NCBI GenBank assembly: GCA_023078555.1
Contig: CM041201.1
Coordinates: 2,363,713 to 2,427,712, forward strand
Source: Ulva prolifera
Lineage: Eukaryota > Chlorophyta > Ulvophyceae > Ulvales > Ulvaceae
DNA: 64,000 bases
Reading direction: 5' to 3'
The position numbers and the translations under genes are program-made. The notes under the pieces were generated by a model, which saw only the letters and a list, made by a program, of their open reading frames with translations, did no database searches and was not told the DNA's origin. Positions 18,712-57,803 of this stretch are shown here, piece after piece; position 1 is the stretch's first letter; each line of letters opens with the position of its first letter.

Positions 18712-21700
18712 TCATGACAGGGGCGAGCGGGGTACATGTTGCTTGTAAAGCAGGCAGCAACTCAGACAGGTTGGCAGGATCGCTTGTGCCCCCTGGGTCA
18801 CCCTCTGGCAGCAGCCTGCCGCGGCGCACCTCCACCAGCACACTGCCCGACAACGCTCCTGAACTCTATTGAAATCCATGCATAAGCTAGGATGTAGCAC
18901 AGGCAGACAGGTCGGCCACACGTGCTGCCGCTTGAGTCCGCTTCCCATTTCACAGAAGTACCGGAACGTGCGGCCGCTGATGCACTCTGGCAGTTGTGTA
19001 AGACTCTTGCACAACATGAGGTCGAGGTGCTGTAGCTGGCTGCAGCCGCTGATGCCCTCTGGTAGTTGTGTCAGACTCTCGCAGCTGCTGAGGTCGAGGT
19101 GCTGTAGCTGGCTGAAGCCGCTGATGCCCTCTGGCAGTTGTGGAAGACTCTTGCACCAGCTGAGGTCGAGGTGCTGTAGCTGGCTGCAGCCGCTGATGCC
19201 CTCTGGCAGTTGTGTAAGGCTTGTGCACCTGCTGAGGTTGAGGTGCTGTAGCTGGCTGCAGCCGCTGATGCCCTCAGGCAGTTGTGTAAGACTGTTGCAC
19301 CGGCTGAGGTCGAGGTGCTGTAGCTGGCTGCAGCCGCTGATGCCCTCTGGCAATTGTGTAAGATTCATGCAACCACTGAGGTCGAGGTGCTGTAGCTGGC
19401 TGCAGCCGCTGATGCCCTCTGGCAGTTGTGTCAGACTCTCGCAGCTGCTGAGGTCGAGGTGCTGTAGCTGGCTGAAGCCGCTGATGCCCTCTGGCAGTTG
19501 TGGAAGACTCTCGCACCAGCTGAGGTGGAGGTGCTGTAGCTGGCTGCAGCCGCTGATGCCCTCTGGCAGTTGTGTAAGACGTTTGCACCTGCTGAGGTCG
19601 AGGTGCTGTAGCTGGCAGCAGCCGCTGATGCCCTCTGGCAGTTGTGTAAGACGCTTGCACCAGCTGAGGTCGAGGTGCTGTACCTGGCTGCAGCCGCTGA
19701 TACCCTCTGGCAGTTGTCTAAGACTCATGCAATAGCTGAGGTTGAGGTGATGTAGCTTGCTGCAGCCGCTGATGCTGTCTGGCAGGTGTGTAAGACTCCA
19801 GCATCTGCTGAGGTTGAGGTACTGTAGCTGGCTGCAACTGCTGATGCCCTCTGGCAGCTGTTCTATACTCTCGCTGCCACTGAGGTCAAGGTGCTCCAGC
19901 TTCCCCAGTCGCTCCACTCGAACCTCGGAGGCATGGCGAAGTCGCATCCTCAGGAACCTGAGCATGGGCCAGCAGCAAAGGTACTGCGCAGCCCGTTCCC
20001 CCGCATGTCCGTGAAATTCCAGCCATAGCCACTGCAGCCTTGGCGCGCATAAGCATCGCCACCGCTTGTCCCAGTGCGAACTGGCCCCATCGACCACTAC
20101 GCAGGCTCGTAGCCGCTTACCATCGACCTTCAACTTTGGATCAATCGATGCATCCGCGACGTGACCTGCCGCCTGGTGCGAGCTGATGTATTGCAACGAT
20201 GAGGATGCATGGCTGTGTTCACTGCCTGAGATGCAGCGCTCTTGGTCCTGCGCTGACAGTTGCAGCGCAATGTCTCGCAGGATGTCGTGCATGTAGTATT
20301 TATGCGTATAATGGTGAAAACGCATGTTAAAGGAATCTGGTGCCACAGCCCTGGACACGAGGCTGCGGCTGACGAGTTGCTCGAGCTTGGCGGCGGCCGC
20401 CCTGACGCTGGCGGGCGTGTGCAGGGGCGCGTGCGTCGCAAAGAGGTGCAGCAGAGCCTCCTCCCCCACCCTCGCATCCTCGGGGAACATCGCAAAGTCC
20501 ATGAAGCACTCCTTCAGGGATGGCGGCAAGATTTCAACGCTCGTAGCACAGGTCCGGGTGACATCATCATCACGTGCACCTGCTGCCCTCTGCGCCTTCT
20601 GCACTTCCAGGCGCTCCTCCCAAGCCTCCGCTGTTCTGCAGTGGCGCAGTGCGCCGCCGAGCACACCAAGCGCGAGGGGATTGCTGCCGCAGCTCTGCAG
20701 CAGCTCTGAACAGGCAGCAGCAGGCACATACTCTGGCGGATGCGCTTCGGCCGACCCAAAGGCATGGTGGTAGAACAGCTGCTTTGCAGGCCCTTCTTTG
20801 AGGAGACCAGGCTTATGAATGCGCAGCTCGCGCATGAGCGTGACTTCACCTGTGCGCGGATCGCGGGGAAGGTAAGACAGAGTCTCTTCGCTCCTCGTCG
20901 TAACAATGAGCCTGCTTCCGTCATGCCGCAGACTGGGCTGCGTGGCAAAGTTCAAAGCCGCCAGCTGCAGCGGACGGCCCTGCGACCATGGCCACAAGTC
21001 ATCCAGAACCAGGAGCACCGCCTGACCCCGCTCATCTTCGCCGTGCGTCAGCTGGGCCAGTGCCTGCAGTCCCTCAGCCGCGGTTGCGAAGCGAATACTC
21101 TGGCCGGGATACAGCTTGACAAATGCCGCCTCGAGAAGGCGCAGCATTTCTCTGTCATTTGCATCTTTCCCGACCGTCAGCCACACAGCTTTGTCAAAGC
21201 GCGACCTGGCGCGCGCAAACACTGCGCAGGCGATGGTCGTCTTGCCGATGCCGCCAGCCCCGACGATGCCGATGTTGCGGTTGTCCTTGAGCTGCTCGTC
21301 AATAAGGGGCACGAGGTCGTCGCTATGCTGGAAGACGTGCTTCGGCAGGGCAGGCTCACTGCACTGCGGCAGCTCGCTCGATGGGCCTCTGTGGGGATGC
21401 ATAGATGGTAACCTGCCGAAGCGGATGCGGGGCGCTGTGGGCACAGACTCTGCCTTGCTCTTCAGGGCTGGGTGCAGCTTCAAGGCTGTGTCCAGATCAC
21501 AGACTTCCTGTAGCGAAGAGCGTAACTCTTTGGGCCTGCTGCTGTAGAATACTCGCTGCCACATCCTCTGCGACCTGGATTGCACGTGCAGCAGCAGCAC
21601 CTCAGCCTCCTGCAGAGTGTCACACATGGCCTGATACTCTGACCTTTGGTCCGCAAATTCAGGCAGATCCGTCAGCTGGTCGAGGGCATGTGCGGCTTTC

Positions 21701-25228: not shown

Positions 25229-25621
25229 AGGTGCAGATCGCAGGTGTGTGATGCGGACATGGTTGGTTGTGATGTCGGCAGACAAGGCTAAAATCAGGGT
25301 CGATGCGGATTCAAAACTATATTTGGCATGTGGGAAGCAGTGTAGGACAAGCAGAGGTGGTCACGAGTGGAGCGTGTGCCATGCGTAGTTGGCTCTACAC
25401 GCTCGTGCACGACGTGAAAGCTTCCCTCGCAAGGCAGCTGCAGTTTGATCATCCGGTCAAGGCGGTGTCTATGTCCTGTAAAGCAAGTTTTCGTCTGAAC
25501 CGAATCTGTCGACCTGGATTCGCGATCGGCCTCTGGAAAGCCAGCGAAATGTAGCAGAAGCCCGTGCGCGAATGAAGGTGTACATACATATACAAGAAAG
25601 GCAGCTAAGATGAGTGTTCCC

Positions 25622-28413: not shown

Positions 28414-28417
28414 CGTT

Positions 28418-32184: not shown

Positions 32185-34602
32185 TCAGAAATGCCCAGAC
32201 CATTGCACTTTGATGCCCTCTGGAACAGCTGCTAGACTCATGCATCCACTGAGGTCGAGGTGCTGTAGCTGGCTACAACCGCTGATGGTGTCTGGCAGGT
32301 GTGTGAGGCTCTCGCACTGGCTGAGGTCAAGGTGCTGTAGCTGGCTGCAGCCGCTGATGCCCTCTGGCAGGTGTGTGAGGCTCTCGCACTGGCTGAGGTC
32401 AAGGTGCTGTAGCTGGCTGCAGCCGCTGATGCCCTCTGGCAGGTGTGAAAGACTCTTGCAACCCCTCAGGTTGAGGTGCTGTAGCTGGCTGCAGCTGCTG
32501 ATGCCCTCCGGCAGTTGTGTCAGGATCTCGCACCAGCTGAGGTCGAGGTGCTGTAGCTGGCTGCAACCGCTGATGCCCTCTGGCAGCTGTTCTAGACTCT
32601 CGCTCCCACTGAGGTCAAGGTGCTCCAGCTTCCCCAGTCCCTCCATTCGAACCTCGGAGGCCAAGACATGGTCAAGTCGCATCCTGAGGAACCTGAGCAT
32701 GGGCCAGCAGCAACGGTACTGAACAGCCGTTTCCTCCGCACATCCGTAAAACTCCAGCCATAGCCACTGCAGCCTTGGCGCGCATAAGTGTCGCCACTGC
32801 TTGTCCCAGTGCGAACGGGCCCCATCGATCACTACGCAGGCGAGTAGCCGCCTCCCATCGACCTTCAACTTTGGATCAATTGATGCATCCGCGACGTGAC
32901 CTGCCGCCTGGTGCGAGCTGATGTACCGCAACATTGAGGATGCATGGCTGTGTGCACTGCCTGAGATGCAGCGCTCTTGGTCCTCCATCGACAGACGCAG
33001 CGCAATGTCTCGCAGGATGTCGTGCATGTAGTATTCATGCGTATGATGGTGACACATTGTGACGGAATCTGGTGCCACAGCCCTGGACACGAGGCTGCGG
33101 CTGACGAGTTGCTCGAGCTTGGCGGCGGCTGCCTTCACGCTGGCGGGCGTGTGCAGGGGCGCGTGCGTCGCAAAGAGGTGCAGCAGAGCCTCCTCCCCCA
33201 CCCTCGCATCCTCGGGGAACATCGCAAAGTCCATGAAGCACTCCTTCAGGGATGGGGGTAATGTGTCAACACTTGTGGCACAGGTCCGGGTGACAGCATC
33301 ATCACGTGCACCTGCTGCCCTCTGCGACTTCTGCACTTTCAGGTGCTCCTCCCAAGCCTCCGCTGTCCTGCAGTGCCGCAGTGCGCCGCCGAGCACTTCC
33401 AGCGCGAGGGGATTGCCGCCGCAGCTCTGCAGCAGCTCTGAGCAGGCAGCAGCAGGCACATACTCTGGCGGATCCGCATCGGCTGACCCAAAGGCATGGT
33501 GGTAGAACAGCTGCTTTGCAGGTCCTTCTTTGAGGAGACCAGGCTTATGAATGCGCGTGACATCCCCTGTGATTGGATCGCGGGGAAGGAAAGACAGAGT
33601 CTCTTCGCTCCTCGTCGTAACAATGAGCCTGCTTCCGTCATGCCGCAGACTGGGCTGCGTGGCAAAGTTTAAAGCCGCCAGCTGCAGCGGACTGCCCTGC
33701 GACCATGGCCACAAGTCATCCAGGACCAGGAGCACCGCCCGACCCCGCTCATCTCCGCCGTGCGTCAGCCGGGCCAGTGCCTGCAGTCCCTCAGCCGCGG
33801 TTGCGAAGGGAACATCCTTGCGGGGATACAGCTTGACAAATGCCGCCACGAGAAGGCGCAGAATTTCTCCTTCGTATGCATCTTTCCCGACCGTCAGCCA
33901 CACAGCATCGTCAAAGCGCGACCTGGCGCGCTCAAACACTGCGCGGGCGATGGTCGTCTTGCCGATGCCGCCAGCCCCGACGATGCCGATGTTGCGGTTG
34001 TCCTTGAGCTGCTCGTCAATAAGGGGCACGGGGTCGTCGCAGTGCTGGAAGACATGCGGCGGCAGGGCAGGCTCACTGCACTGCGGCAGCTCGCTCGATG
34101 GGCCTCTGTGGGGCTGCATAGATGGTAACCTGCCGAAGGTGATGCGGGGCGCTGTGGGCACAGACGCTGCCCTGCTCTGCAGCATTGGGTAAAGCTTTAA
34201 AGTTGTGTCTAGATCACAGAACTTCTGCAGAGAGCAGCGCAGTTCCTTGGGCTTGCTACCATGCACAAGTCGCTGCCACCATCTTTGTGGCTCGTGTTGC
34301 ACGTGGAGCAGGAGCAACTCGGCCTCCTGCAGAGTGTCACACAGGGCCCGATAATCTGACCGGAGGCCCGCAAATTCAGGCAGATCCGTCAGCTGGTCGA
34401 GGGCATGTGCGGCTTTCAGGAGCGCCTCGTCGCTCAGCTGATCGAGCAGCTTCCGGCTCTGCTTCGGGTGGCCGCCGATGGCTATTCCACGTTCTACCAG
34501 CCACTGAATGGACTCTTCAGCAGCCCAGCCGGCGACATCGCTGACGATCGGCAGAGGAATGGCTTTCGTCAAGGTGGCGCCTGCTGCCGTTCCCGCAGCC
34601 AT
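32185..34602 (-). CDS. NLR2: NB-ARC/LRR receptor with truncated N-terminus, unit B
   Basis: Open frame of 805 aa. It keeps the helical region and the full NB-ARC set: GAGGIGKTT (about 209-217), VLLVLDDLW, GSRLIVTTRS, GGNPLAL, CFMDFAMFPED and YYMHD. Compared with NLR1 it lacks the LMREL segment before RIHKPG. Only about five 24-residue LRRs follow, then VPEGIKVQWSGHF-stop; the VPEGIKV ending is shared with NLR3. The first ~40 residues and the upstream region of NLR1/NLR3 are gone. At about 34,605-34,612 the sequence switches to the right-flank module T, sharing TGCAG with it. The Met used here (34,602) exists only because of that junction. Without its promoter it may be silent, although the frame is free of stops. 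Confidence 0.75.
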   Translation of the reverse strand: MAAGTAAGATLTKAIPLPIVSDVAGWAAEESIQWLVERGIAIGGHPKQSRKLLDQLSDEALLKAAHALDQLTDLPEFAGLRSDYRALCDTLQEAELLLLHVQHEPQRWWQRLVHGSKPKELRCSLQKFCDLDTTLKLYPMLQSRAASVPTAPRITFGRLPSMQPHRGPSSELPQCSEPALPPHVFQHCDDPVPLIDEQLKDNRNIGIVGAGGIGKTTIARAVFERARSRFDDAVWLTVGKDAYEGEILRLLVAAFVKLYPRKDVPFATAAEGLQALARLTHGGDERGRAVLLVLDDLWPWSQGSPLQLAALNFATQPSLRHDGSRLIVTTRSEETLSFLPRDPITGDVTRIHKPGLLKEGPAKQLFYHHAFGSADADPPEYVPAAACSELLQSCGGNPLALEVLGGALRHCRTAEAWEEHLKVQKSQRAAGARDDAVTRTCATSVDTLPPSLKECFMDFAMFPEDARVGEEALLHLFATHAPLHTPASVKAAAAKLEQLVSRSLVSRAVAPDSVTMCHHHTHEYYMHDILRDIALRLSMEDQERCISGSAHSHASSMLRYISSHQAAGHVADASIDPKLKVDGRRLLACVVIDGARSHWDKQWRHLCAPRLQWLWLEFYGCAEETAVQYRCCWPMLRFLRMRLDHVLASEVRMEGLGKLEHLDLSGSESLEQLPEGISGCSQLQHLDLSWCEILTQLPEGISSCSQLQHLNLRGCKSLSHLPEGISGCSQLQHLDLSQCESLTHLPEGISGCSQLQHLDLSQCESLTHLPDTISGCSQLQHLDLSGCMSLAAVPEGIKVQWSGHF
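32215..32640 (-). repeat. 72-bp LRR-coding tandem array of NLR2
   Basis: Five 72-bp units plus end pieces; the shortest of the three arrays. Two neighbouring units (about 32,296-32,439) are almost identical (SQCESLTH), consistent with a recent single-unit duplication. Confidence 0.88.
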
Positions 34603-34611
34603 GCCTGCAGG

Positions 34612-40827: not shown

Positions 40828-42709
40828 CTGCACCACAACAGCATCCGCCATGGCGGCCCGATCTCCCCTCGCCGACAAGCTCTCCATGCATACGATCACG
40901 GGTCGTCGCGGCTCAGAGGCTCTGTGTATCTCACGCCGGCATGCCTCGGTGGCTGCTCAGCAGTGCTGTTCAGTGCTAGGCCTCAACGGCACACCAGGAT
41001 TTTGGCAATGGCTCTGTGTAGTCTGGCGTAATCGCCTTTCAGTGCGGCTGCTCGGCATAAAAATCACCTCACAGGCCCTTCCCAGCCGTGACCCTTCCCT
41101 GTGTAGACTGCCGCATCTCGATCATGCATGGGCTGCATGCATGCCGACGCTGCTGCAGGTCATCTGCGTCGACAAGACGGGCACGCTGACATGCAACTCG
41201 ATGACGGTCGCGCGCGCCGCGGTGCCCACCGCCGCCGTCGCCTCCCAGACGCTGCGCGAGTTCACGGTGCGAACGGAGGCGCGCCCCGCGCCGCCGGGGC
41301 CGTCTACGCCGACGTCCAGCGTCGACGCGCCCACGGCCGTGCCGGTGCTGCGGCCGGCGGCCGTCGGCAGCCTCCGCATGTGCGCACTGGCTGGCTCGGT
41401 GTGCAACGACGCGGAGCTGATTGTTGATGAGGAGACGGGGGAGTTCAGGCACGTCGGGGAGAGTGCCGAGGCGGCGCTGCGGCTGTTTGCGGAGCGAGTA
41501 GGGTTGCCGGAGGACGTCCAGGTGTGTTCGATTGCCAGAGAGCTGTATAGCCTCACGACATTGCCCAGCACCACATTCTCTTCTCGAGGGAACAATTCAC
41601 TGAGTGACAAACCACGGGCATAAACGAGCCCGTACTTGTGCGTCCCTGCAGCGATCTCAAGCCGCCGCCGCCGCCTGCAGGCTCCAGCACAGTCCCGATG
41701 TCAACCGAGCTGCGCGTCGCCGTCGACGCGATGGTCGAGCGCTGGGGCTCGGAGGCGGCGCTGCGGTGTATGGCGCTCGCGTACCGCCCGCTGCCGGCCG
41801 GAGGACCCCCCGTGACGCACGCGGACGAGCAGGCGCTGACGTTCATCGGCGTCGTCGGCCTGCACGACCCGCCACGGCCCGAGGCCGCCGACGCTGTCGC
41901 GTGCTGCGGCACCGCTGGCATCCGCGTCGTGATGCTCACAGGTGCGCGATTATAGTACCCTCCATGCATGCCACTCCTCGCGCACGTGAAACGCGAACCA
42001 TTCCTGCGCCCGCGCCGTTTACCTGCGCCGAGCTGAGCTGAGACATCCCAGACGCACCGAATACATTCTATCAGTCCGTTCATTCAACACCTAATCATGC
42101 ATTGACCACCGGAGATGGGAGCAATACCGTACTAAATGAAATCGTTCGCCATGTAACGCGTAACGCAGGGTTTTCTAGGTACTCCGGTAGGTAATTTTAA
42201 GCATGATGTTTCGGGGTGATTGACCCAAAAAAGGTTAAAATTTTAGACCTAGACCCCATGTAATTTATCCCGGGCTAATTTAGCGAACCTTTTACCTTAG
42301 TCCGGTACACTGCATCATTGTTCCTCGATTGATTGTGTGTAACACGAAGCGTGCAGTGATGCCCCCGTTCCACACGTTCACATGTGTGCGTGCAGGCGAC
42401 AACCCCGCCACCGCCAACGCCGTCGCGCGCCAGGTCGGCATCCTCTCCACCGACATCGCCGTGCCAGGGTTAGCGCCGAGCCCCGCGGCCTCCTCCAGCG
42501 CCGCGAGCGGCGCCACGGTGTCGCGGGACAGCAGCGAGCGCACCGTGGCGGAGAGCATGACGGCGACCGATTTCCTCGCGCTGTCGGACGGGGAGCAGCG
42601 CGTCGCCGCGGTGCGGCTGCGGGTGCTTGCGCGTGTGGAACCGCTGCATAAGCAGAAGCTGGTGGAGCTGCTGCAGGATGCTATGCGGCGCGGCTCACAA
42701 TTTATGCAT

Positions 42710-42851: not shown

Positions 42852-43178
<327 letters not shown>

Positions 43179-44469: not shown

Positions 44470-44924
44470 GCCCGTTCATGGACTCTGCAACAACTCGCCG
44501 GTGGTGCCGTGCAGGCACATCCCCGGGCTGCAGCTCGTGTTTGGCGTCACGGCGCTATCGTGGCCGGAGTGGCGGGCTGTGCTGCTGCTCTCCGCGCCGG
44601 TGGTGCTGCTCGATGAGGGCCTCAAGTTTGTGTCGCGGGGCGGCCTCGCGTCGTGGGGCCGCGCGCTGACATGGGCGTGCACCTTCTGCTGGCGCAGCCG
44701 GCGCTACATGGGCATCGCGGGGGATGGGACCCACTACGACGAGGACGCGGGGGATGGGCAAGAGATGCAGAAGCTGCGCTCATCATAGGGTGTTGTGGAC
44801 AAATGGGCGTTGTGGCCGTGGCGCTGCGATACAGCCTGTTCAGAGGGTTCTCTGCCGCAGACTAAACAGGTACACCTGCCGAACAGGTTTATGGTGTGGG
44901 GTTGGGGGGTTGGGAAGGTCGGGC

Positions 44925-44960
44925 GGGGGGGGGGGGGGGGGGGGGGGGGGGGTGGGGGGG
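44925..44960 (+). repeat. Poly-G run (28 G, T, 7 G)
   Basis: Sits at the same place as the 30-G run at 10,479-10,508, 140 bp after the ATPase stop. Retained in both duplicates with different length. Confidence 0.85.
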
Positions 44961-45650
44961 TAGATGACGTGGCAGTGCAGAAGTCCAATACAGAGTGTGT
45001 ACATGGGCAGCCCTAGCCAGGCCAGCCAAAAAACGGACATGGCCAGTGTGTCGGTGGTTGCCTGTCGCGATTGCAAGCCTCCTGAGCATCCAATGCCGGA
45101 GGCGCTGCACTGTGGCGGCAGGTATCCACATGCCTGGTGTGTGTGTCGTAACGGCGCGGGGCTGGATCCCAAAATGCAGTAGTAGTCCTGATGGATGCAT
45201 GATGTATGCAGTAGAACGGTAACATCACGTGCATGCCCATGTGCCTTGTGTAGGCCATTACAATTGCTTTGCTGCAACACATGTGTGTACAGTGCTGGCT
45301 TCTGAAGAGCTGGCTTCTGAAGAGTCCCACACCTGGCTCAAAGCAGGTATGTTTCTGCCAGAGAAATGCCCCTACATCAGCAAGGCGATACATCTATGTC
45401 ACAGCTATAGAGCATCTGCATATTCCATAGATTGTTTAGCGTCTGAATCAGCGTCCAAAACTGTTGGGCTGGTGCCGGCACATACGGCAGATCAGCAGCG
45501 GCAGCAGCGCATTCGAGGCAAGTCACTGCAATTGTTTGTCTTTTGCCAACATCCACTTCAAGGCTTGTAAGGCAACGCCGACCACCACACTGCTCGACAT
45601 TCGACGGAGCATTTGAGGAGAGCCCCTGACGTAGACTGATGCGCGGCACG

Positions 45651-47641
45651 ATGGCTGAGCGCACGTTTGAACGTTTCGCAATGGACAGGAAGTGTGTTCT
45701 GATAACCGGAGGCTCCAAAGGTGTGTTCATGCCGACGGCAGCGTCGCTGCTCGTGCCAAGTACTTCAATGCACAGGTCTTTCATCAACAGCAGTGTCGTG
45801 TTTGCTTCTGCAATGTCGTTGTCCCATTCATGCAAGCACAACGCGCGTGCCAAGACTGTGGAAAACATTGTAAGGAGTGATCAGCTGGCATGTAACGATC
45901 TAAATGTCTTTTATTATGTTGGAGCGTAAACCGGCGTGTCGATCAGAGCGCCACAGCGGGCAATGTCACGCCCAGGACTGGCCAATGTCTAGAACGCCTA
46001 GCCACCAGAATTGCCAAAAGAGGCCTCCGTCAAAATGCATGTTAATCAGGTGTCTCACGGCGCTGCACCTCTGCAGGCATTGGCAAAGCTGCTGTCAGGG
46101 AATTCGCTGAGGTAGGAGCTCGAGTGTATACATGCTCGAGAGACCAGGCTGAGCTAGACACTGTGCTGGAGCCTCTGAAGGCTAAAGGTTTACCAGTGGC
46201 AGGATGCATGGCGGATGTCACCAACACAGACGCAGCTGAGCATCTGGTCAATCAGGCGCTCGCCTTCTTTGGAGGTGTGTCACAGATCACTGCTCAGCAC
46301 CAAGGTGGAAGATGTACTGGCACCGCATTCCAGATCACTGTCATGAGCAAGCCTGCCGCTAGCGCAGGCCAGCCTGCGCAGTCTCCTGCTCTCGGACACT
46401 CGCTGAAATGCAGCTAGGCATCGGCATGCCTGTCGCCCACCTATCACTGAGTGCAGGCCACCAAGAATGTCAGCGTACACCTGAGGCCTGACCTCATGTT
46501 GGTGGCATGCCATCTCCTTGATGTCTTCTGGAGGGCAGGGACGTCATCTGCTTTTCATTGCGGAATGGAAGGGTACATCCAATGGCATTTAGCATCGAAC
46601 AACGCGCAGGTGGCAACAATAGCCCTGCACCCCCTCCTGTACAAGTCCTTCACATCCTCAACCTCAGCTGCAGCTGAACCCAACGATGTCCATGATTTCA
46701 GGGCAGCTGGACGTTTTGGTCAACAACGTCGGCACGAACCGCCGCCGGCAGGCTGAGGACGCGACCGCAGAGGACTTTGACATGATGATGGCAACGAACG
46801 TGCGCTCCGCACTGCGTCTCTGTCAGCTCTGCCGGCTGCACCTCGCCAGATCCAGCGCACCATCCATCATCTTCAACTCCTCCGTGGCCAGCGGGCCGCT
46901 GGCGCTGTGGAGTGGGTGTGTCTACGGGATGACGAAAGGTAAGCCAATCCGCCCCCCCCCCCGGGAACGCAGAGTCCACATCTGTCTTTGCATCGATGTG
47001 TACCTCCCAGGATCTACATGCATTGCCTGGACAAACACGTGATGACACAGGGGCGGCATGGGGCAAGCGCGCAAACAGCGGAATCGGCTACTGCAAGACA
47101 CGCTACTCACGGCAGCTTGCATAGAATCTGGCATGCACGGAGACACCAGGGAACCGTGCCCTGCGGCAGCCTGTGCCAGCCCAGCGGGGTGTATGCAGCG
47201 GCGCTGAATCAGCTGACGCGGAGCCTCGCGTGCGAGTGGGCGCGGGACGGGACGTCGGGCGCGCCCCTTGCCGCTCTCAGCTGCCCCTGCGAGACGGATC
47301 CTGTGATGCCAAAGCGCCTCGCGATTCCGTCATGCGACGTCACCGTGCTGTGGTTGTGCTGGTTCTATTGTGGCCCGAACGCAGACGGCTGCGTCGCGGG
47401 TACATCAAGGGCCCCATATTTGGCCGCGGCCTGAATTGAAAATACGCCACGGACGTTACGCTCAACATCGATCCTGGGAGATGCAGTCCACCATTGTAGT
47501 CGGGGATGCCGCTGCAGCTTCGCAGTCGAGTGACCACCAACCCCATCTGCAGCGTCCTTCATCACCGGGCATGTGCTGCCCATCGACGGCGGCATGTCCG
47601 CCAATGGGTTCCACGTGGCCGCAGACTACCAGCCATGCTAG
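45651..47641 (+). pseudogene. SDR1 copy with two frame-preserving deletions, unit C
   Basis: Exons 45,651-45,720, 46,077-46,274, 46,702-46,938, 47,199-47,258 and 47,553-47,641. Exons 1-3 are complete (TGGSKGIGK, NNVG, YGMTK). Exon 4 has lost 129 bp (43 codons, A 12,792-12,920), removing the IRVNAVAPW to AEPEE part. A second deletion of 159 bp (A 13,219-13,377) removes the intron 4 acceptor and the start of exon 5, but the new junction creates CTGCAG|CG, which restores phase to FITGHVLPIDGG. If spliced this way the product would be 217 aa. It would lack the substrate-binding loop region, so activity is unlikely. The GC donor is shared with unit A. Confidence 0.7.
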
Positions 47642-47758
47642 CGCAAGTCGTGGTGACGTGCACTTGAAAACTGCCACGTTTCAGACCGGCCACTGCATGG
47701 GCCCATTCACAGATTTGTAAACAAAAAAGACTTTTCTGTTCGCACCCGTTGACATTTT

Positions 47759-47763
47759 TGTAA
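47759..47763 (+). terminator. Polyadenylation signal TGTAA
   Basis: TGTAA followed by TAAAACC, same context as 13,585-13,589, 118 bp after the SDR1 stop codon of unit C. Confidence 0.5.
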
Positions 47764-48793
47764 TAAAACCACTCCATGGGCCCGTGTGCATGTGGTGTGC
47801 ACAGAGATGGCGTGGGTGCTCGTTGTTGGGGCTGCAAAAGTACGGGCTTTCAGGGTGGCCTGCAGGATTTTTCAAATCCACCGGGAAATATGCTTTTTGC
47901 TCCAGTCAAGGGAGTGGTGCATCCTGGGAATGCCAACAGCTACCCGATGCAACCAGTCATGTGCTGCGTCAGCACGATTTGATTGCAGTTCTGTTCATGC
48001 CTGACGTATGTGACTATGGGCAGAATACATGAACTTGCGATACAAAGCCACATGTGATCACAGAATTACAGATTGATCGTGCCAAGGAATTCAACAATAG
48101 ATCCGTATGACCTTGCCACGGTCCCCAGCAGCATGCTGTGGCGTTAAAGCTCTGTCAATGAGGCACCACTTGCAGGCACAGCCGCTGTACCCCTGCAAAC
48201 TGCAGCTTCCACATAAGGCTACACAAGCATCCCAAAGCGTAGCCAAGTCACTTCCAAGTCAATGTTGCGGCACATGGGCCATGTTCTGCATCCACCTCGT
48301 CAGTGTGACACGCACACTGCATGCTCGTCCACAGCACCTCTGCTGATTTCGCCTGAAAACCGACTGAATAGAGAGCTCGCAGCAGCCAGCGCAACATCGT
48401 CAATCACTTGCGTCACGTCATGTTAGTCACTCACACAGACTTGCAAGCCCGAAAGGAGGTTGTGCATATCACTCTTTGTATTCCCTGCCATGGCTATTGG
48501 TACCCCGACACATGTTCATGCGCGCAACACAGTTCTGCATAGTCCGCGATCCTGAGCTCGGCAGAACTACCTGAAGAGCACTAGCAACTTGTATAATGGA
48601 ACATCCTCTGTTTTGACGATGGTGTTGCGTACGTGCAATAGCCCCGTTTGACTTTGCACACCCGTCGTTTGCGATCGCGATAGCGACGCTTTCTCAGGCA
48701 TATCTACGGCTCTCCTCATGTAGATCGTCAGCGATATACGAAGTGGAACTTTTTTCATCTTTCCTCTTCTACATCGTCATATGTACTTTGACA
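47764..48793 (+). other. Intergenic region between SDR1 and SDR2, unit C
   Basis: Homologous to 13,590-14,628 with scattered differences. The final 150 bp include the same GCGATCGCGATAGCGACG motif and the pyrimidine-rich leader before the SDR2 start codon, so the likely promoter is conserved. Confidence 0.4.
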
Positions 48794-51579
48794 ATGGCAA
48801 GTGCAGCCAGCTACACGTCCAAGCTGTTCGGGATGGAAGGCAAGTGCGTCCTGGTCACCGGTGGGACGTCAGGTGCGTCAACATGGGGTGATCTCCAGCC
48901 ACTGGTAAAGGAAAGAACATTGGAATGATTTCGATCTTGCACTCACGTTTCCTGAGAATGACCTAAAAGTTGAAGCCATGTGCTTGGTGCAGCCAGGCCA
49001 GGACGGTCATGCAGCCGATGCTGGTCAACGCAATCAGCTTTCCGTCGCATCAATACAGAGACAGCGTTGCCAACAGCTGTTGTGTCCATGAGATCACGAG
49101 TATGTGTCAAATGTCAGCCAGCTCCAGTCATGTGCTGTATGCATCCTCAGCTGGTGCCCACCTGTCAATGGATGGGCAAGATCATGCATCAACATCCCGG
49201 TGCAGGCCGTCTTCACTCTTAAAAGTAAACCATGAATACAATTATGCGGGACACATGTCAAGACATACCATTCAGACGCCTTTGCATGTCATCTGACTCA
49301 GTGATAGTTTATGTATCTGACACCTGAGTCAGACCAGGCCGGTTTGGGCACAGCATGCGCACGTCAGGGCCTCAACACGAGCATCACCCACTGATTCACA
49401 GTAAGTTGACAGGTCTGCGGAGATTCAGGCATAGGCAAGGCCGTCGTTGAGGAGTTTGCAAAGCTCGGAGCGAAGGTGTACACATGTGCCCGAGACGAGC
49501 AGAAGCTGAGCCAGACCATCGCCAACCTCAGCGACAAAGGCCATGTCGTCGGAGGCTCCCCGGCAGATGTTTGCAACCTCGAAGATGCCAAGGACTTGGT
49601 GGCGAAAGCAACAACGTTCTTTGACGGTGTGAATCCATTGTTATGGGATCATTTAAGGCATTTGCTTTCATCAGTGCACATTACCACTGTCAATCCCACT
49701 GGCAGGCAGACCTTTGTATCAGTACAGCCGCTCATCGCAGAGAACCAGGCAGCAGAGCCCATCAACTTCGCTAACTAGCATCCCTCAAGGGAGTGCATAC
49801 TGACACCTAGAAGCAAATCGCCATGGTCTGTCCGGACCGTGGTGGAATCAGCATGTTCCCGTGGATGTCTGGTCAGCTCTGCCACACCTGTACCCAGGAG
49901 GCACTTCATTCCATACATCACCATGCCACTCCCAACTAGCGTAGCACTAAGCCCTGTCACGTAACGACATGGGGCGCCTCCACAGCTGCATGCTGCGTGT
50001 GGGTCAGGCCTGCCCTTGCTTGCGTATGCTGCAATGACAGACTGCTTCACATATATCAGTGTTGGACTGCGGTCCAAGGTTGTGATCACACCGCCGCTGA
50101 TGTTGATTGCATGCGAATCTGATGATGGTCAAGTGCGGCCTGGAAGAGGCGCATCGGGTGTTGCACACAGCCAGGTGAGCATCGATAACACAGCCGGGTG
50201 AGCGTTCAGGCCTCGTCACACTACAGTGTGATGGGGCCAACAGGCCCAACTGCATACATACTTCTACAGCCTCACTTCAGCGGCACGATGCCTTGAAGAG
50301 ACAGGTCAAAGGCTAAGCATCTATGTGTGTAGTCAGACGTTAAATTCCATGCAGGCAGGCTGGACGTGCTGATCAACAATGTGGGCACCGACCGCCGCAA
50401 GGCCGCCCTCGACACCACAGCGGAGGACCTCGCGTCCCTGATGGCCACAAACGTGCAGTCTGCGCTGCAGCTGAGCCAGCTGTGCCACCCGGCGCTGGCC
50501 AAGGCGGGCGGCAGCATCGTGCTCAACTCGTCCGTGGCGGGCGGGCCGCAGGCGATGAAGAGCGGCTGCATGTACGCCATGACCAAAGGTGAGGCTTTCT
50601 CACCTGTGAGTCAATGGTAGACAGGGCTCCTGCAAACGTGAGCTCGTGAGCATGCATGCGTGTGTGCGAACTGGCCGCTGTGCTGCTGCGGGTGACGGAG
50701 GTGTTGATCACTAGGCCTCACGTGCCCCCTGCGCCACACAGTTTTTGCAGTTTCGCCTGCTGCATTGCAGAGTCACTTGCACCCTTGTTAGGCCTGCCGA
50801 GGCCGCTCACAGCACATCGACCATTTTCCAGAACTGCAGCGGGAATCTGTGGTACATAGTGCGCACAGTGCTGAGACACCAGACCCCTTGTACGCTGCCC
50901 CAGCCTGGATGGCCCCAACCCTGTCTTCCACCGTGATCACAACAGCCCACACCCGGGCCCCCCTCAAGCGTGTCACCCCAAAACCGTTGGAGCCACTTGG
51001 TGCTTTGGAACTTTGCTGAACCCGTCAGCCAGAGATGCGTCGCACAAACACCGTGCCAGCGCTGCTGCAGCCTCGTTGAACCAGCTGACCAGGAACCTCG
51101 CGTGTGAGTGGGCGCGGGACGGGATCCGCGTCAACGCGGTCGCGCCGTGGTACACCGCCACCCCCGCCGCTGCCGCCGCGCTGCGCGCCGACCCGCAGTA
51201 CGAGGCCGACGTGCTCGGCCGCACGCCGCTCGGCCGCATCGGCCAACCCGCCGAGATCGCCGGTGCGCCCCTCTTCCGGCGAGCGCAGCCGCGTTTCTGC
51301 TTTGCATTGCACGACCAGCAACATGTACACAGACCGCAGAGCGTGCATACCTGCCACTGACGCCGAGGAACCCAAACATGGCCACGTGTACGGCACCTCA
51401 GCGCCCATGCATGTGCGACAGCGACGGCGGCGGCGGATGCAGCGGTGACGGCCATCCTGGCGTCGCCGGCGGCGGCGTACATGACGGGGAAGACGCTCGC
51501 CGTTGACGGTGGCCACAGTGTGATGGGCATCTACGCCGAGGCCCAGGGGGATGCCGCCTCCAGTGGCGCCCGCTTCTAG
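48794..51579 (+). CDS. SDR2: tropinone-reductase-like short-chain dehydrogenase, unit C
   Basis: Five exons with GT-AG introns, all phase 1: 48,794-48,872; 49,429-49,626; 50,355-50,588; 51,071-51,262; 51,443-51,579. They give 279 aa without a stop or frameshift. Motifs: TGGTSGIGK (cofactor loop), YTCAR (Arg favouring NADPH), NNVG, SSVAGG (catalytic Ser), YAMTK (catalytic Tyr/Lys), [21 protein letters not shown] and YMTGKTLAVDGG, followed by a 25-residue Gly/Ala/Ser-rich tail. It is closest in pattern to plant tropinone-reductase-like SDRs, which act on diverse small carbonyls, so tropinone itself should not be assumed. It differs from SDR1 by the first exon (MASAASYTSKLF) and the tail. No transit peptide is evident. 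This is the intact counterpart of the damaged unit A copy. Confidence 0.87.
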
Positions 51580-53501
51580 AGCCGCATCTGACGCTCTTCC
51601 AACAAGCAATCGTAGGATTTTGCGGACCTGGCATCTCTGCAGCTACTGTGTCGGGGACACAGGCACGCTTAGCTGGCTGGCTGCTTGAATCGCACGAGGC
51701 TGACACCTCGCCCGTGTATAAATGCTAGCACTAAGCCCCCTTGCTTGCACATGCCATTGGTCATGCTTGCAAGTGCGAGCATGAGTTCCGGGCGGCCGCC
51801 GACAGGCAGCACCGGGGCTCGTTTGCGCTTGCGTGCCACGCACTCCTAGCGCTGCGGTGTTCACGTGTGGTGGCGACAGCCCAGAATTGCCCACCCTGCC
51901 TAGCAGGCAGCGGCTGCGCACACTACCTCGGGCAATGCCGCGTCGGCTCTGCTGGTTGTACCCCTCATCCTTGTGATAGACATTCTAGGACTACAGGTGC
52001 TGTGTCTTGGGCTGTTGCTTCAGGATACACTCGTGAGCTTGTGCAAAGTAGCGCCAGGAGGACATCCTGTCAAAGAGGCAGTCTGGCCATGATGGGGTGT
52101 AAGGCAATGCCAACTGACATGACATGCGACACCCAGAATGCCATGCAATTATGTTGATAATATAGAAATCCTGAACAGCCTTGCGATCTGCGGCGGCAGA
52201 GCCTCTAACTGGGCCCACTGCACAATCATTGCAGAGCATCTCGACTCTGAACAACACGTGAGTTTCATGCACAGGATGCCCCTGACAGGCACTGTCATTC
52301 GAGCAGGTGCTGCCGCAGGTCTGAGCCGTTGAACAAGGAGTCAAAGGGCTGAAGTACATGCATCCTGTCATGCTGCAGCTACACATGCCACGCACAACGA
52401 TGGCCGGAACGAGAACCCCCTGGTACAGAGTGGGACATGCTACCCTGTTGCTGGAAGCTCGAGCCCTGAGCTGCAAAGCAGTGTGTCTAGTCTAGCTGTA
52501 TTGTAATATGTTCTTACAGAAGACTGACACGGGCATATAGAAACCCAAAACAAAGAAGAAGCTTTCTAAGTCAACATTTGTACACACAGCCACACTACAG
52601 CACTTTTGTGCTGTGATGTAATGACTGATGTGCTGCTTGAATAGCAACATTTGTGCTGTGCCTGTTTCACGCTGCTTTGACTACCCTCTGAGGTTTGGCA
52701 TCAGCATGGCAGCCTCGATGCACCTCAGCTCGATGCATCTCAGCAGGTTGCCCCGGCTGTTTACGCTAATGTCCGGCTCAGCATGCTTGCGTCGGCAGTG
52801 GCCAGCTTCAATCATTGCGGATCCCATGACAGGTTGCTCCACCGGCTTGCACACAGTCAAAATTGGACTGCTCTACAACGTCTGCAACATGCGCACAGGT
52901 TGTCAACATGTCTGTGAAAAGGCGCCTTGCACAGTGCTGCTGCATGCTCTGCACTGGAGCCAATGCTCTGGAATTGGATGCACCTTCTCCACACGCCCGA
53001 ACGGCGAAAACTCTACACGCAGCGCTGGGCACATGCATCATGAAACAACGGGAGGGGGGTATACATGTTACTTGTAAAGCGGCTGCACTGCTTGCGATCT
53101 CAAACCTCGCGGATCCCTTGAGAGAGGGACATCACTGTCAGTGCAGCACTAATAGCGCCATGGATCCAGTAGTACAGGAGCCCTGGGTGTCACCATAGGC
53201 GAAGGCATAGGTGAAGGTGATCAGCATGACGAAGATGCCAGACACTGCAGTGGTGGCACACGCACCTTCTCTTGAATCAGAAATGCCAGACCACTGGTGA
53301 CAACCACTGAGAAATCCATCAGTGGCAAAGGGTCCAGTAGCTGTTGATGCAAAGAACCATAGCCGCAGCACACTGCTGCTGTGTGTACAAGGCTGGTGAC
53401 AGTGGTGACAAGGCTGGTGTTGCCTTCTGTGCGTAGCTGTGTGTAATTGTCTGCTTCTCCTTTCATGAGGATATATGCACACAGCTGCACCATGCATGCA
53501 C
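51580..53501. other. SDR2-NLR3 convergent intergenic region, unit C
   Basis: Shares the NLR 3'-flank block (about 52,045-52,960) with units A and B. From about 53,080 to 53,500 there is unit C-specific sequence, including TCACCATAGGCGAAGGCATAG-like stretches, with no supported gene. It probably includes the NLR3 3' UTR. Confidence 0.45.
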
Positions 53502-56500
53502 TCATGCCCTCGCCGGGCTGTGGAATTCTACTTTGATGCCCTCTGGAACAGCTGCTAGACTCTTGCATCCACTGAGATTGAGAGGCCGTAGCTGGCAACA
53601 GCCGCTGATGCCCTCTGGCAGGTGTGTCAGATGATTGCACCAGCTGAGGTTGAGGTGCTGTAGCTGGCTGCAGCTGCTGATGCCCTCTGGCAGCTGTGTA
53701 AGACTCCGGCAATCACTGAGGTCGAGGTGCTGTAGCTGGCTGCAGCTGCTGATGCCCTCTGGCAGTTGTGCAAGACTCATGCACCAGCTGAGGTCGAGGT
53801 GCTGTAGCTGGCTGCAGCCGCTGATGCCCTCTGGCAGTTGTGTAAGACTCTTGCACAAGCTGAGGTGGAGGTGCTGTAGCTGGCTGCAGCCGCTGATGCC
53901 CTCTGGCAGTTGTGTAAGACTCTCGCAACTGGTGAGGTCAAGGTGCTGTAGCTGGCTGCAGTCGCTGATGCCCTCTGGCAGTTGTGTAAGACTCTTGCAC
54001 AAGCTGAGGTGGAGGTGCTGTAGCTGGCTGCAGCCGCTGATGCCCTCTGGCAGTTGTGTAAGACTCTCGCAACTGGTGAGGTCAAGGTGCTGTAGCTGGC
54101 TGCAGCTGCTGATGCTGTCTGGCAGTTGTGCAAGACTCTTGCACCAGCAGAGGTTGAGGTGCTGTAGCTGGCTGCAGTCGCTGATGCCCTCTGGCAGTTG
54201 TGTAAGACTCTCGCAACCCTTGAGGTCGAGTTGCTGTAGCTGGCTGCAATGGCTGATGCCCTCTGGCAGTTGTGTAAGACTCTCGCAATCCTTGAGGTCG
54301 AGGTGCTGTAGCTGGCTGCAGCCGCTGATGCCCTCTAGCAGGTGTGTAAGATTTATGCAACTGCTGAGGTCGAGGTGCTGTAGCTGGCTGCAGCCGCTGA
54401 TGCCCTCTGGCAGTTGTGTAAGACTCACGCAAAAGCAGAGGTCGAGGTGCTGTAGCTGGCTGCAGCCGCTGATGCCCTCTGGCAGTTGTGTAAGACTCAT
54501 GCAACTGCTGAGGTCGAGGTGCTGTAGCTGGCTGCAGCAGCCGCTGATGCCCTCTGGCAGTTGTGTAAGACTTGTGCACCAGCTGAGGTTGAGGTGCTGT
54601 AGCTGGCTGCAATGGCTGATGCCCTCTGGCAGTTGTGTAAGACCCATGCAATGGCTGAGGTCAAGGTGCTGTAGCTGGCTGCAGCTGCTGATGCCCTCTG
54701 GCAGTTGGGTAAGACTCTCGCAACTGGTGAGGTCAAGGTGCTGTAGCTGGCTGCAGCTGCTGATGCTGTCTGGCAGTTGTGAAAGACTCTTGCAACTGCT
54801 GAGGTTGAGGTGCTGTAGCTGGCTGCAGCTGCTGATGCCCTCTGGCAGCTGTGTAAGACTCCCGCAATCACTGAGGTTGAGGTGCTGTAGCTGGCTGCAG
54901 CCGCTGATGCCCTCTGGCAGTTGTGTAAGACTCATGCAATTGCTGAGGTCGAGGTGCTGTAGCTGGCTGCAGCCGCTGATGCCCTCTGGCAGTTGTGTAA
55001 GACTCCCGCAATCACTGAGGTTGAGGTGCTGTAGCTGGCTGCAGCCGCTGATGCCCTCTGGCAGTTGTGTAAGACTCCCGCAATCACTGAGGTTGAGGTG
55101 CTGTAGCTGGCTGCAGCTGCTGATGCCCTCTGGCAGCTGTGTAAGACTCCCGCAATCACTGAGGTTGAGGTGCTGTAGCTGGCTGCAGCCGCTGATGCCC
55201 TCTGGCAGTTGTGTAAGACTCATGCAATTGCTGAGGTCGAGGTGCTGTAGCTGGCTGCAGCCGCTGATGCCCTCTGGCAGTTGTGTAAGACTTGTGCACC
55301 AGCTGAGGTTGAGGTGCTGTAGCTGGCTGCAATGGCTGATGCCCTCTGGCAGTTGTGTAAGACCCATGCAATGGCTGAGGTCAAGGTGCTGTAGCTGGCT
55401 GCAGCTGCTGATGCCCTCTGGCAGCTGTGGAAGCCTCCAGCATCTGCTGAGGTTGAGGTGCTGTAACTGGCTGCAACCGCTGATGCCCTCTGGCAGCTGT
55501 GTAAGACTCCCGCAATCACTGAGGTCGAGGTGCTGTAGCTGGCTGCAGCTGCTGATGCCCTCTGGCAGTTGTGTAAGACTGCTGCAACCACTGAGGTTGA
55601 GGTGCTGTAGCTGGCTGCAGCCGCTGATGCCCTCTGGCAGGTGTCTCATGAACATGCTCCCACTGAGGTCAAGGTGCTCCAGCTTCCCCAGCTTCCCCAG
55701 ATGCTCCACTGGAAAATCGAAGAATGTTTGCATCCTGAGGAACCTGAGCATGGGCCAGCAGCAAAGGTACTGCACAGCCCTTTCCAGCGCGAATCCGTGA
55801 AATTCCAGCCATAGCCACTGCAGCCTTGGCGCGTGTAAGCATCGCCACTGCTTGTCCCATGGCGAACTGGCCACATCGACCACAACGCAGGCTTGCAACC
55901 GCCTCCCATCGACCTTCAACATTGAATCAGTCGATGCATCCGCGACATGACCTGCCAACTGGTGCGAGCTGATGTACCGCAACGATGAGGATGCATGGCT
56001 GTTTGCACTGCCTGAGATGCAGCGCTTTTGGTCCTTCATTGACAGTCCCAGCGCAATGTCTCGCAGGATGTCGTGCACGTAGTACTTATGCTTATGATGG
56101 TGACGCATTTTGACGGAATGAGGTGCCACAGACCTGGACACGAGGCTGCGGCTGACGAGCTGCTCGAGCTTGGCGGCGGCTGCCTTCACGCTGGCGGGCG
56201 TGTGCAGGGGCGCGTGCGTCGCAAAGAGGTGCAGCAGAGCCTCCTCCCCCACCCTCGCATCCTCGGGAAACATCGCAAAGTCCATGAAGCACTCCTTCAG
56301 GGATGGGGGCAAGACTTCAACGCTCGTAGCACAGATCTGCGTGACAGCATCATCACGTGCACCTGCTGCCCTCTGCGCCTTCTGCACTTTCAGGTGCTCC
56401 TCCCAAGCCTTCGCTGTCCCGCACTGCCTCAGTGCGCCGCCGAGCACTTCCAGCGCGAGGGGATTCCTGCCGCAGCTCTGCAGCAGCTCTGAGCAGGCAG

Positions 56501-57803
56501 CAGCAGGCACATACTCTGGCGGATCCGCATCGGCCGACCCAAAGGCATGGTGGTAGAACAGCTGCTTTGCAGGCCCTTCTTTGAGGAGACCAGGCTTATG
56601 CATGCGCAGCTCGCGCATGAGCGTGACTTCACCTGTGCTTCGATCGCGGCGAAGGTAAGACAGAGTCTCTTCGCTCCTCGTCGTAACAATGAGCCTGCTT
56701 CCGTCATGCCGCAGATTGGCCTGCGTGGCAAAGTTCAAAGCCGCCAGCTGCAGCAGCGGACGGACCTGCGACCATGGCCACAAGTCATCCAGCACCAGGA
56801 GCACCGCCCGACCCCGCTCATCTCCGCCGTGCGTCAGCCGGGCCAGTGCCTGCAGTCCCTCAGCCGCGGTTGCGAAGGGAACAGCCTTGCGGGGATACAG
56901 CTTGACAAATGCCGCCTCGAGAAGGCGCAGCATTTCTCCGTCGTTTGCATCTTTCCCGACCGTCAGCCACACAGCATCGTCAAAGCGCGACCTGGCACGC
57001 TCAAACACTGCGCGGGCGATGGTCGTCTTGCCGATGCCGCCAGCCCCGACGATGCCGATGTTGCGGTTGTCCTTGAGCTGCTCGTCAATAAGGGGCACGA
57101 GGTCGTCGCAGTGCTGGAAGACGTGCTTCGGCAGGGCAGGCTCACTGCACTGCGGCAGCTCGCTCGATGGGCCTCTGTGGGGATGCATAGACGGTAACCT
57201 GCCGAAGCGGATGCGGGGCGCTGTGGGCACAGGCCCCGCCATGCGCTTCAGCGTTGAGAACAGCTGCATACTCGTGTCCAGCTTGCAGCATTTCTGCAGT
57301 GAGCAGCGCAGTTCCTTGGGCTTGCTACTATGCACAAGTCGCTGCCACAACCTCTGCGACCTGGATTGCACGTGCATCAGGAGCACCTCGGCCTCCTGCA
57401 GAGTGTCACACAGGGCCCGATAATCTGACCGGTGGCACGCAAATTCAGGCAGATCCGTCAGCTGGTCGAGGGCATGTGCGGCGTTCAGGAGCGCCTCGTC
57501 GCTCAGCTGATCGAGCAGCTTCTGGCATTGCTTCGGGTGGCCGCCGATGGCTATTCCCCATTCTACCAGCCACTGCATTGACTCCTCAACAGCCCAGCCG
57601 GCGACATCGCTGACGATCGGCAGAGAAATGACTGTCTTCACGGCGGCGCCCGCTGCCTTTCCCGCAGCCTTGCCTGCATTCTCGCCTGCTTTCTTGCGTG
57701 CTTCCTTCCCACAAATCATCACCTGCAGGGCATCGGCTTTCGGATCGAGGTGTATCCTTGGATGCATGGCCACACGTGTGTGTATGCACGACCTGGCAGA
57801 CAA
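53502..57803 (-). CDS. NLR3: NB-ARC/LRR receptor with 29 homogeneous LRRs, unit C
   Basis: Single open frame of 1433 aa, the longest gene in the window. Helical N-terminal region (about 1-190), P-loop GAGGIGKTT (about 253-261), kinase-2 VLLVLDDLW, RNBS-B GSRLIVTTRS, GLPL-like GRNPLAL, RNBS-D CFMDFAMFPED, and YYVHD where NLR1 and NLR2 have YYMHD. About 29 LRRs of 24 residues follow, one with an extra Cys (GCCSQ). The protein ends VPEGIKVEFHSPARA-stop. No TIR, signal peptide or membrane segment is seen. By analogy with plant NLRs it is a cytoplasmic sensor that oligomerises after exchanging ADP for ATP. The preferred start may be Met13 (57,767), conserved with NLR1. It is convergent with SDR2, and its upstream region holds three copies of the M module. 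Confidence 0.87.
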   Translation of the reverse strand: MSARSCIHTRVAMHPRIHLDPKADALQVMICGKEARKKAGENAGKAAGKAAGAAVKTVISLPIVSDVAGWAVEESMQWLVEWGIAIGGHPKQCQKLLDQLSDEALLNAAHALDQLTDLPEFACHRSDYRALCDTLQEAEVLLMHVQSRSQRLWQRLVHSSKPKELRCSLQKCCKLDTSMQLFSTLKRMAGPVPTAPRIRFGRLPSMHPHRGPSSELPQCSEPALPKHVFQHCDDLVPLIDEQLKDNRNIGIVGAGGIGKTTIARAVFERARSRFDDAVWLTVGKDANDGEMLRLLEAAFVKLYPRKAVPFATAAEGLQALARLTHGGDERGRAVLLVLDDLWPWSQVRPLLQLAALNFATQANLRHDGSRLIVTTRSEETLSYLRRDRSTGEVTLMRELRMHKPGLLKEGPAKQLFYHHAFGSADADPPEYVPAAACSELLQSCGRNPLALEVLGGALRQCGTAKAWEEHLKVQKAQRAAGARDDAVTQICATSVEVLPPSLKECFMDFAMFPEDARVGEEALLHLFATHAPLHTPASVKAAAAKLEQLVSRSLVSRSVAPHSVKMRHHHKHKYYVHDILRDIALGLSMKDQKRCISGSANSHASSSLRYISSHQLAGHVADASTDSMLKVDGRRLQACVVVDVASSPWDKQWRCLHAPRLQWLWLEFHGFALERAVQYLCCWPMLRFLRMQTFFDFPVEHLGKLGKLEHLDLSGSMFMRHLPEGISGCSQLQHLNLSGCSSLTQLPEGISSCSQLQHLDLSDCGSLTQLPEGISGCSQLQHLNLSRCWRLPQLPEGISSCSQLQHLDLSHCMGLTQLPEGISHCSQLQHLNLSWCTSLTQLPEGISGCSQLQHLDLSNCMSLTQLPEGISGCSQLQHLNLSDCGSLTQLPEGISSCSQLQHLNLSDCGSLTQLPEGISGCSQLQHLNLSDCGSLTQLPEGISGCSQLQHLDLSNCMSLTQLPEGISGCSQLQHLNLSDCGSLTQLPEGISSCSQLQHLNLSSCKSLSQLPDSISSCSQLQHLDLTSCESLTQLPEGISSCSQLQHLDLSHCMGLTQLPEGISHCSQLQHLNLSWCTSLTQLPEGISGCCSQLQHLDLSSCMSLTQLPEGISGCSQLQHLDLCFCVSLTQLPEGISGCSQLQHLDLSSCINLTHLLEGISGCSQLQHLDLKDCESLTQLPEGISHCSQLQQLDLKGCESLTQLPEGISDCSQLQHLNLCWCKSLAQLPDSISSCSQLQHLDLTSCESLTQLPEGISGCSQLQHLHLSLCKSLTQLPEGISDCSQLQHLDLTSCESLTQLPEGISGCSQLQHLHLSLCKSLTQLPEGISGCSQLQHLDLSWCMSLAQLPEGISSCSQLQHLDLSDCRSLTQLPEGISSCSQLQHLNLSWCNHLTHLPEGISGCCQLRPLNLSGCKSLAAVPEGIKVEFHSPARA
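53535..55690 (-). repeat. 72-bp LRR-coding tandem array of NLR3 with 720-bp higher-order repeat
   Basis: About 29 units of 72 bp. The stretch around 54,601-54,660 is identical to 55,321-55,380, exactly 720 bp (ten units) apart, and the similarity extends to neighbouring units. Pairs such as TSCESLTQ/LSLCKSLTQ also alternate (repeats 22-25). The pattern shows growth by duplication of single units and of multi-unit blocks. Confidence 0.88.

Follow-up and report, generated by a model that had tools for sequence, protein, structure and literature searches.

Plant-type NLR genes of the green alga Ulva prolifera carry near-identical leucine-rich repeats in arrays of widely differing length

A stretch of 64,000 nucleotides from the Ulva prolifera genome (assembly GCA_023078555.1, contig CM041201.1, positions 2,363,713 to 2,427,712; hereafter the window) contains three genes for nucleotide-binding leucine-rich repeat (NLR) proteins whose backbones are nearly the same but whose C-terminal arrays of 72-bp leucine-rich repeat (LRR) units differ greatly in length. 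Together with their relatives in the genome, these genes probably encode plant-type intracellular receptors whose sensor diversifies by LRR shuffling, as in the fungal NLRs with high internal repeat conservation. The original prediction described three paralogues with almost identical 24-residue LRRs and read them as a fast-evolving recognition system. The observation is confirmed and is somewhat stronger than stated; the interpretation is partly supported, with a well-supported pattern and a function that appears plausible from the sequence. The genes and their domains, in window coordinates, are:

18712–22044, minus strand: NLR gene 1, one long open reading frame (ORF), 1110 aa stop to stop, start codon provisional
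20581–21285, minus strand: NB-ARC match of gene 1, with P-loop GAGGIGKTT
18973–19908, minus strand: LRR array of gene 1, an entry LRR and 12 near-identical 72-bp units
32185–34620, minus strand: NLR gene 2, one ORF, 811 aa stop to stop
33313–34002, minus strand: NB-ARC match of gene 2
32206–32637, minus strand: LRR array of gene 2, an entry LRR and 5 units, of which the final one is the terminal LRR
53502–57812, minus strand: NLR gene 3, one ORF, 1436 aa stop to stop
56328–57071, minus strand: NB-ARC match of gene 3
53529–55691, minus strand: LRR array of gene 3, an entry LRR and 29 units, with block duplications inside
57213–57719, minus strand: N-terminal domain of gene 3; in gene 1 the corresponding domain matches RPW8 below threshold

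All three window genes match NB-ARC and LRR families above cut-off (E-values for NB-ARC PF00931 of 4e-18, 1.4e-23 and 1.7e-18), and both the region from NB-ARC to MHD and the LRRs match land-plant NLRs in the PDB by sequence. The motifs GAGGIGKTT, LLVLDDLW, GSRLIVTTR, NPLAL and (M/V)HDILRDIA are seen in these genes, and presumably have the functional roles of NB-ARC motifs; gene 3 has VHD where genes 1 and 2 have MHD. As predicted for the N-terminal and NB-ARC parts, the backbones are close, with 89.6–91.3% DNA identity among the three genes. A single divergent LRR (LGKLEHL...) forms the entry of each array, and most of the units after it read CSQLQHLDLSxCxSLTQLPEGISG. When the entry LRR is not counted, the predicted repeat numbers of 12, 5 and 29 are exact; Tandem Repeats Finder gives 12.9, 5.3 and 29.8 copies (scores 1374, 514 and 2934). 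Internal units of the window genes, whether compared within or between genes, lie 8.1–10.6 differences per 72 bp apart, which bears out their near-identity; the within-gene means are 8.1 in gene 1 and in gene 3 and 10.5 in gene 2. An LRR fold is predicted, with a match to RPP1; the VIA list is a test of essentially the LRR part alone.

The genome contains 33 NB-ARC matches, located on contigs C6, C4, C1, C8, C3 and C31, of which 28 were examined, the five omitted being fragments below 50 bits. Clade A denotes the ten closely related genes whose arrays could be used: the three window genes together with L013, L014, L016, L017, L018, L024 and L028. Their backbones are about 90–97% identical in DNA and carry 5 to 29 in-frame units, a nearly sixfold range on near-identical backbones; in L016 and L028 only the units before a frameshift were counted. 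The twin of gene 2, L024, lies 36 kb away and has a backbone 97.0% identical to it, with 6 units rather than 5. A more distant gene, L020 (C6:2568248-2578212), encodes about 72 LRRs in one ORF of 2458 codons, with a 7-unit higher-order repeat present in four to five copies, and is thus more extreme than the window genes. L009 and L012 have differing 5-unit block repeats, and L030, which is cut at its end, has a 7-unit block repeat. In ten relatives (L011, L015, L021, L022, L023, L031–L033, L035 and L036) the arrays are not homogenised, with mean unit identities of 0.42–0.54 and no pair at 0.97 or above; homogenisation is therefore a trait of part of the family. Among the matches listed there was no LRR-only reservoir, each of them lying close to an NB-ARC match or within the L034 copy (judged by eye, with 150 of 328 candidates scored), and no relatives were confirmed in viral contigs or prokaryote genomes by a peptide-pattern method.

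Unit relationships were compared in clade A; the statistics omit L019 and two duplicate copies, L029 and L034. The ten genes yielded 142 units, of which nine (terminal LRRs and false anchors) were dropped; the remaining 133 comprise 112 distinct DNA sequences. Two units of the same gene differ on average at 8.7 of their 72 positions and two units of different genes at 9.5, and the nearest unit lies in the same gene for a fraction of 0.63 of units compared with 0.12 (maximum 0.22) for shuffled labels, in agreement with the expectation that units would cluster by gene. Measured against internal units, the entry LRR shows 23.3 differences per 72 bp and the terminal LRR 20.7; across genes, entry units differ from one another by 9.0, not less than internal units do, and the six terminal units by 5.0. 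These differences indicate that the entry LRR and the terminal LRR are types of their own that keep their place, a terminal LRR ending the array in six of the ten genes, and that the units between them all belong to a single interchangeable type. In gene 3, units 5–7 differ from units 15–17 (entry = 1) by 0, 0 and 1 bases, and sister genes have acquired differing block repeats. Unit 5 of gene 2, its fourth internal unit, consists exactly of the first 59 bp of L024 unit 5 and the remainder of L024 unit 6; L024 units 4 and 5 are identical. The net change between these 97%-identical sisters is exactly one unit (72 bp), with the breakpoint inside a unit. The block duplications and the exact intra-unit chimera point to out-of-register recombination.

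A minimum-spanning tree with 111 edges was used to place substitutions among the 112 distinct units. Positions 8, 10, 11 and 13 showed replacement change at 2.49 (interval 2.00–3.27) times the overall synonymous rate, while the value at the scaffold positions L4, L7, L9, C12, L15, L18, P19 and I22 was 0.07 (0.03–0.13). Positions 5, 6, 8, 10 and 11, a set based on general knowledge of LRRs and added after the first look, gave 1.53 (1.20–1.95). In held-out arrays, that is, arrays outside the choice of positions and analysed over short edges only, positions 8, 10, 11 and 13 gave 2.80 (1.95–4.36; 24 edges) in the C8 pair L009 and L012, and 1.48 (1.09–1.94; 62 edges) in L009, L012, L020, L026 and L030 pooled. 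Measured on the clade A tree against the synonymous rate of the same four positions, the value was 5.47 (2.00–24.08) for edges of at most three differences. That scaffold and variable positions contrast with each other is firmly supported; positive selection as such at the variable positions is likely but not proven. In the predicted structure, mapped by hand, unit positions 6–8 form the strand and positions 20–24 a short helix, so that the variable residues fall where the strand ends and in the loop beyond it. This is the face at which LRR proteins in general bind their ligands, and the variable residues likely touch a target.

Taken together, the arrays suggest a receptor in which a helical, CC (coiled-coil)/RPW8-like N-terminal domain would trigger the response, followed by an NB-ARC switch and a C-terminal LRR solenoid serving as sensor. 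The internal 72-bp units show the pattern expected of gain, loss, block duplication and hybridisation through out-of-register recombination within the array, a process that may be unequal exchange or conversion. Since the scaffold is nearly constant and replacement change falls on a few exposed residues, ligand specificity would depend jointly on how many units there are, on their order and on their identity. By analogy with the solved relatives RPP1, Roq1 and ZAR1, a ligand bound at the variable face would free the NB-ARC switch, leading to oligomerisation and to cell death or defence. A bolder version is tentative and, in our view, rather doubtful: the arrays would rearrange often, perhaps during clonal growth, so that a population holds a standing repertoire differing in LRR number and order, as a cassette-shuffling innate immune or allorecognition system with a plant-type NB-ARC core and arrays reaching about 72 LRRs.

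Several results weigh against the shuffling-receptor interpretation, beginning with the N-terminal domain. RPW8 (Pfam) was matched in 2 of 14 N-terminal sequences, with a best E-value of 0.003 and 17.6 bits, under the cut-off of 30.4; a six-frame scan of the genome gave no RPW8 matches, and the AlphaFold2 (AF2) model of the domain is of low confidence and unreliable. L27 (Pfam), also matched in 2 of the 14 (best E 0.0013), was as unconvincing as RPW8, and a profile of the 14 sequences found nothing better than E 0.1 in the PDB. The domain is possibly helical and CC/RPW8-like, of a kind reviewed and tested from streptophyte algae to angiosperms in the available portions of two reports (PMC10952240, PMC11218826). 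A candidate splice acceptor, CTGCAG|GTG, lies near the presumed start in five of the ten clade A genes (with the two best candidates per gene listed), and a first exon may therefore be absent from the ORFs. In L035 (C4:7315800-7322500, a plus-strand ORF) a MAEPI reading precedes the N-terminal domain; it is one letter off MAEPL, a motif of the CC domains of non-flowering plants, and is possibly due to chance.

Further contrary results concern the unit positions and the likeness between genes, and part of them favours an ordinary plant-style NLR cluster that arose by recent gene duplication, with neutral LRR turnover and no special diversification system. Positions 8, 10, 11 and 13 were picked after the clade A variation had been viewed, and there was no excess at them in held-out L020 (0.96, 21 edges) or the held-out C4 group (1.00, 23 edges); the predicted likeness to fungal diversification, with few variable codons on a conserved scaffold, is supported within these limits. 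The xxLxLxx set gave 1.38 (0.97–1.88) over all held-out arrays. Synonymous differences were likewise raised at positions 8, 10, 11 and 13, and against the positions' own synonymous rate the tree value was 1.75 (1.11–3.23) for all edges, 1.50 (0.91–3.01) for edges of at most five differences and 1.16 (0.79–1.77) when position 14 was added; comparison of all pairs on the same yardstick gave dN/dS ratios below one (0.88 for positions 8, 10, 11, 13 and 14; 0.80 for 10, 11, 13 and 14). Unit dS (0.14 within genes, 0.18 between genes) and backbone dS (mean 0.12, range 0.04–0.20 among the ten clade A genes) are of the same order, so that backbones and units are all young, and the genes lie in a segmental duplication. 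Because between-gene unit dS exceeds the mean backbone dS, the genes can resemble one another without any exchange of units. L010, L013 and L024 share one unit type without a difference, and since they are sister genes it may have been inherited; unit exchange between genes is possible. A scan for chimeric units found 5 in 133, a weak excess over controls (mean 1.9, maximum 4). What makes an ordinary cluster unlikely in our assessment is the nearly sixfold range of copy number on near-identical backbones, the interchangeability in type of internal units but not of entry and terminal LRRs, the strength with which scaffold and variable positions contrast in clade A and again in the held-out C8 pair, and the differing block repeats of sister genes.

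Collapsed or inserted units could have made the array lengths largely products of assembly. Consistent with this, duplicate NLR copies differ by gaps only (L017/L034, 29 gaps; L026/L027, 12 gaps; neither with mismatches) or are fully identical (L028/L029 and L032/L033); they look like uncollapsed or unpolished assembly sequence and were excluded as evidence of polymorphism. Frameshifts in L016, L019 and L028, which also weigh against the shuffling-receptor interpretation, point the same way. The 29-unit ORF is nevertheless open along its whole length, the 30 LRRs of gene 3 (entry included) comprise 24 distinct amino-acid sequences, which aids unique assembly, contigs C1 and C6 each carry both short and long arrays, and the change between gene 2 and L024 is a clean recombinant; the duplicates also agree with their partners in array length, though they are perhaps not independent. 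We regard assembly as a highly improbable source of the length differences. The same three frameshifts, and an end of gene 1 unlike the tails of its sister genes, would fit a family that expanded once and is now pseudogenising; the window ORFs and those of L014, L017, L018 and L020 remain open over 811–2458 codons, the scaffold ratio is 0.07 and mean backbone dN/dS is 0.59 over 45 pairs, and such decay seems very improbable as well. Another alternative, whose mechanism overlaps that of shuffling receptors, assigns the genes to self/non-self recognition or mating compatibility, as for the fungal het NLRs, rather than to pathogen defence. The plant NLRs named among the PDB matches are, we presume, pathogen-resistance proteins, which speaks against a compatibility role. 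In its favour, conserved repeats, few hypervariable codons and length change resemble the Podospora HNWD genes, as far as the available portions of the fungal reports describe them (PMC2873952, PMC12222747). On balance we consider this role quite unlikely.

Like the land-plant NLRs of both the CC/RPW8 type (ZAR1, MLA13, ADR1) and the TIR type (RPP1, Roq1), the algal genes have an NB-ARC-to-MHD core, plant-type LRRs and clustered paralogues; they differ from the TIR type in that a six-frame search of this genome gave no TIR match. To our knowledge, the LRRs of land-plant NLRs are generally divergent from each other. In fungal NLRs with high internal conservation, concerted evolution is combined with a few hypervariable codons, and no LRR turned up in the survey of fungi (PMC4986451, PMC2873952, PMC12222747). 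The HNWD-type genes described there (Podospora het-d, het-e and het-r) and the algal genes share a STAND/NLR architecture (STAND, signal transduction ATPases with numerous domains), a C-terminal array of near-identical repeats, length change and few variable codons on a conserved scaffold, the binding face in the alga being a putative one. The fungal sensor is built of WD40, ANK or TPR repeats whereas the algal one is built of LRRs, so that the algal genes may work like HNWD genes yet are not filed as members; and inter-locus exchange, isolate polymorphism and spontaneous rearrangement are documented in those fungal accounts, whereas the algal genes were read in one genome.

It had also been suggested that no LRR equivalent was well described in green algae. 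Among the matches listed from an exact-term search of the open-access literature, no report of homogenised LRR arrays in green-algal NLRs was found, and to that extent the suggestion holds; sea-urchin and brown-algal genes widen the comparison. A sea-urchin LRR-NLR with high internal conservation, cited in the accessible part of PMC12222747 (Hibino 2006), likewise has such LRRs on an NLR and differs in being an animal gene. In brown algae, LRR-ROCO genes undergo shuffling of 72-bp LRR exons, and their selected sites lie on the concave face (PMC11378527); they, and the NB-ARC-TPR genes, resemble the window genes in the shuffling of 72-bp LRR modules in an alga. The LRR-ROCO genes have a ROC-COR GTPase core, one LRR per 72-bp exon, introns and alternative splicing, whereas the window genes have an NB-ARC core and one uninterrupted frame over the array, in a green alga. 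NB-LRR genes combining NB-ARC and LRR have been reported from the chlorophytes Chromochloris, Botryococcus and Ulva, with an NLR gene cluster in Chromochloris (PMC8891106, PMC7145615); by description rather than sequence, the available portions of these reports cover TIR-linked Chromochloris genes and one Ulva gene and make no mention of homogenised or length-variable arrays.

Segmental duplication over about 36 kb gives the window itself a mosaic structure, with genes 1 and 3 in paralogous segments:

1–4606, no strand assigned: duplicated segment with a copy at 36339–40944 that is 99.94% identical and gap-free; part of the roughly 36-kb block
36339–40944, no strand assigned: second copy of 1–4606
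10214–18759, no strand assigned: region downstream of gene 1, piecewise paralogous to 44656–53087 (downstream of gene 3), 81–96% identical

The remaining duplicated pieces are 81–96% identical, apart from one at 99.3%. The NLR-bearing duplicated blocks also hold three copies of a glycosyltransferase-like segment with an EPCGL motif (window 4270, 30009 and 40608, all minus strand), the first of which gives a Pfam group 1 glycosyltransferase match and which may represent starch synthase, and two copies of a P-type ATPase-like segment with a DKTGT motif (7600 and 41171, both plus strand). The antisense strand of the gene 3 array is open for 721 codons (window 53635–55800, plus strand), probably as a by-product of the codon make-up of the units. 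NCBIfam Xanthomonas LRR effector matches of the arrays were attributed to the likeness of LRRs to one another or to chance, the protein being repetitive; gene 3 passes two of the curated cut-offs (XopAE, 602 against 600; XopAC, 454.9 against 450) by way of many repeated LRR stretches. Its Pfam Sputnik V18/19 and Synapsin_N matches were likewise set aside as LRR resemblance or chance, not identity. Near the start of C6, the segment C6:33000-60500 holds mismatch-free copies of two NLR loci from C1:4.68-4.82 Mb, one identical over 5 kb and the other differing by 29 gap positions, which are likely uncollapsed or misplaced assembly sequence. The assembly measures 88.9 Mb in 44 contigs. Among its nuclear genes, light-harvesting genes gave 38 matches at exon level and the RuBisCO small subunit gave 4 exon matches, as befits a photosynthetic eukaryote of the green lineage; a light-harvesting reading returned two chains at a strict cut-off, and a search of the assembly for the RuBisCO large subunit gave no match. 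One small-subunit exon reading is nearest to chains that we take to be of Chlamydomonas type, the organism names behind the PDB codes being our own attribution.

If the shuffling-receptor interpretation is right, a green alga would possess, with LRRs and a plant-type NB-ARC core, a counterpart of the fungal NLR strategy, and plant-type NLRs would be able to enlarge their sensor by modular gain of LRRs. The family would then offer solenoids of naturally graded length, 5 to about 72 repeats, in which the effects of LRR number and surface residues on specificity could be tested, and an algal system in which receptor diversification could be measured directly.
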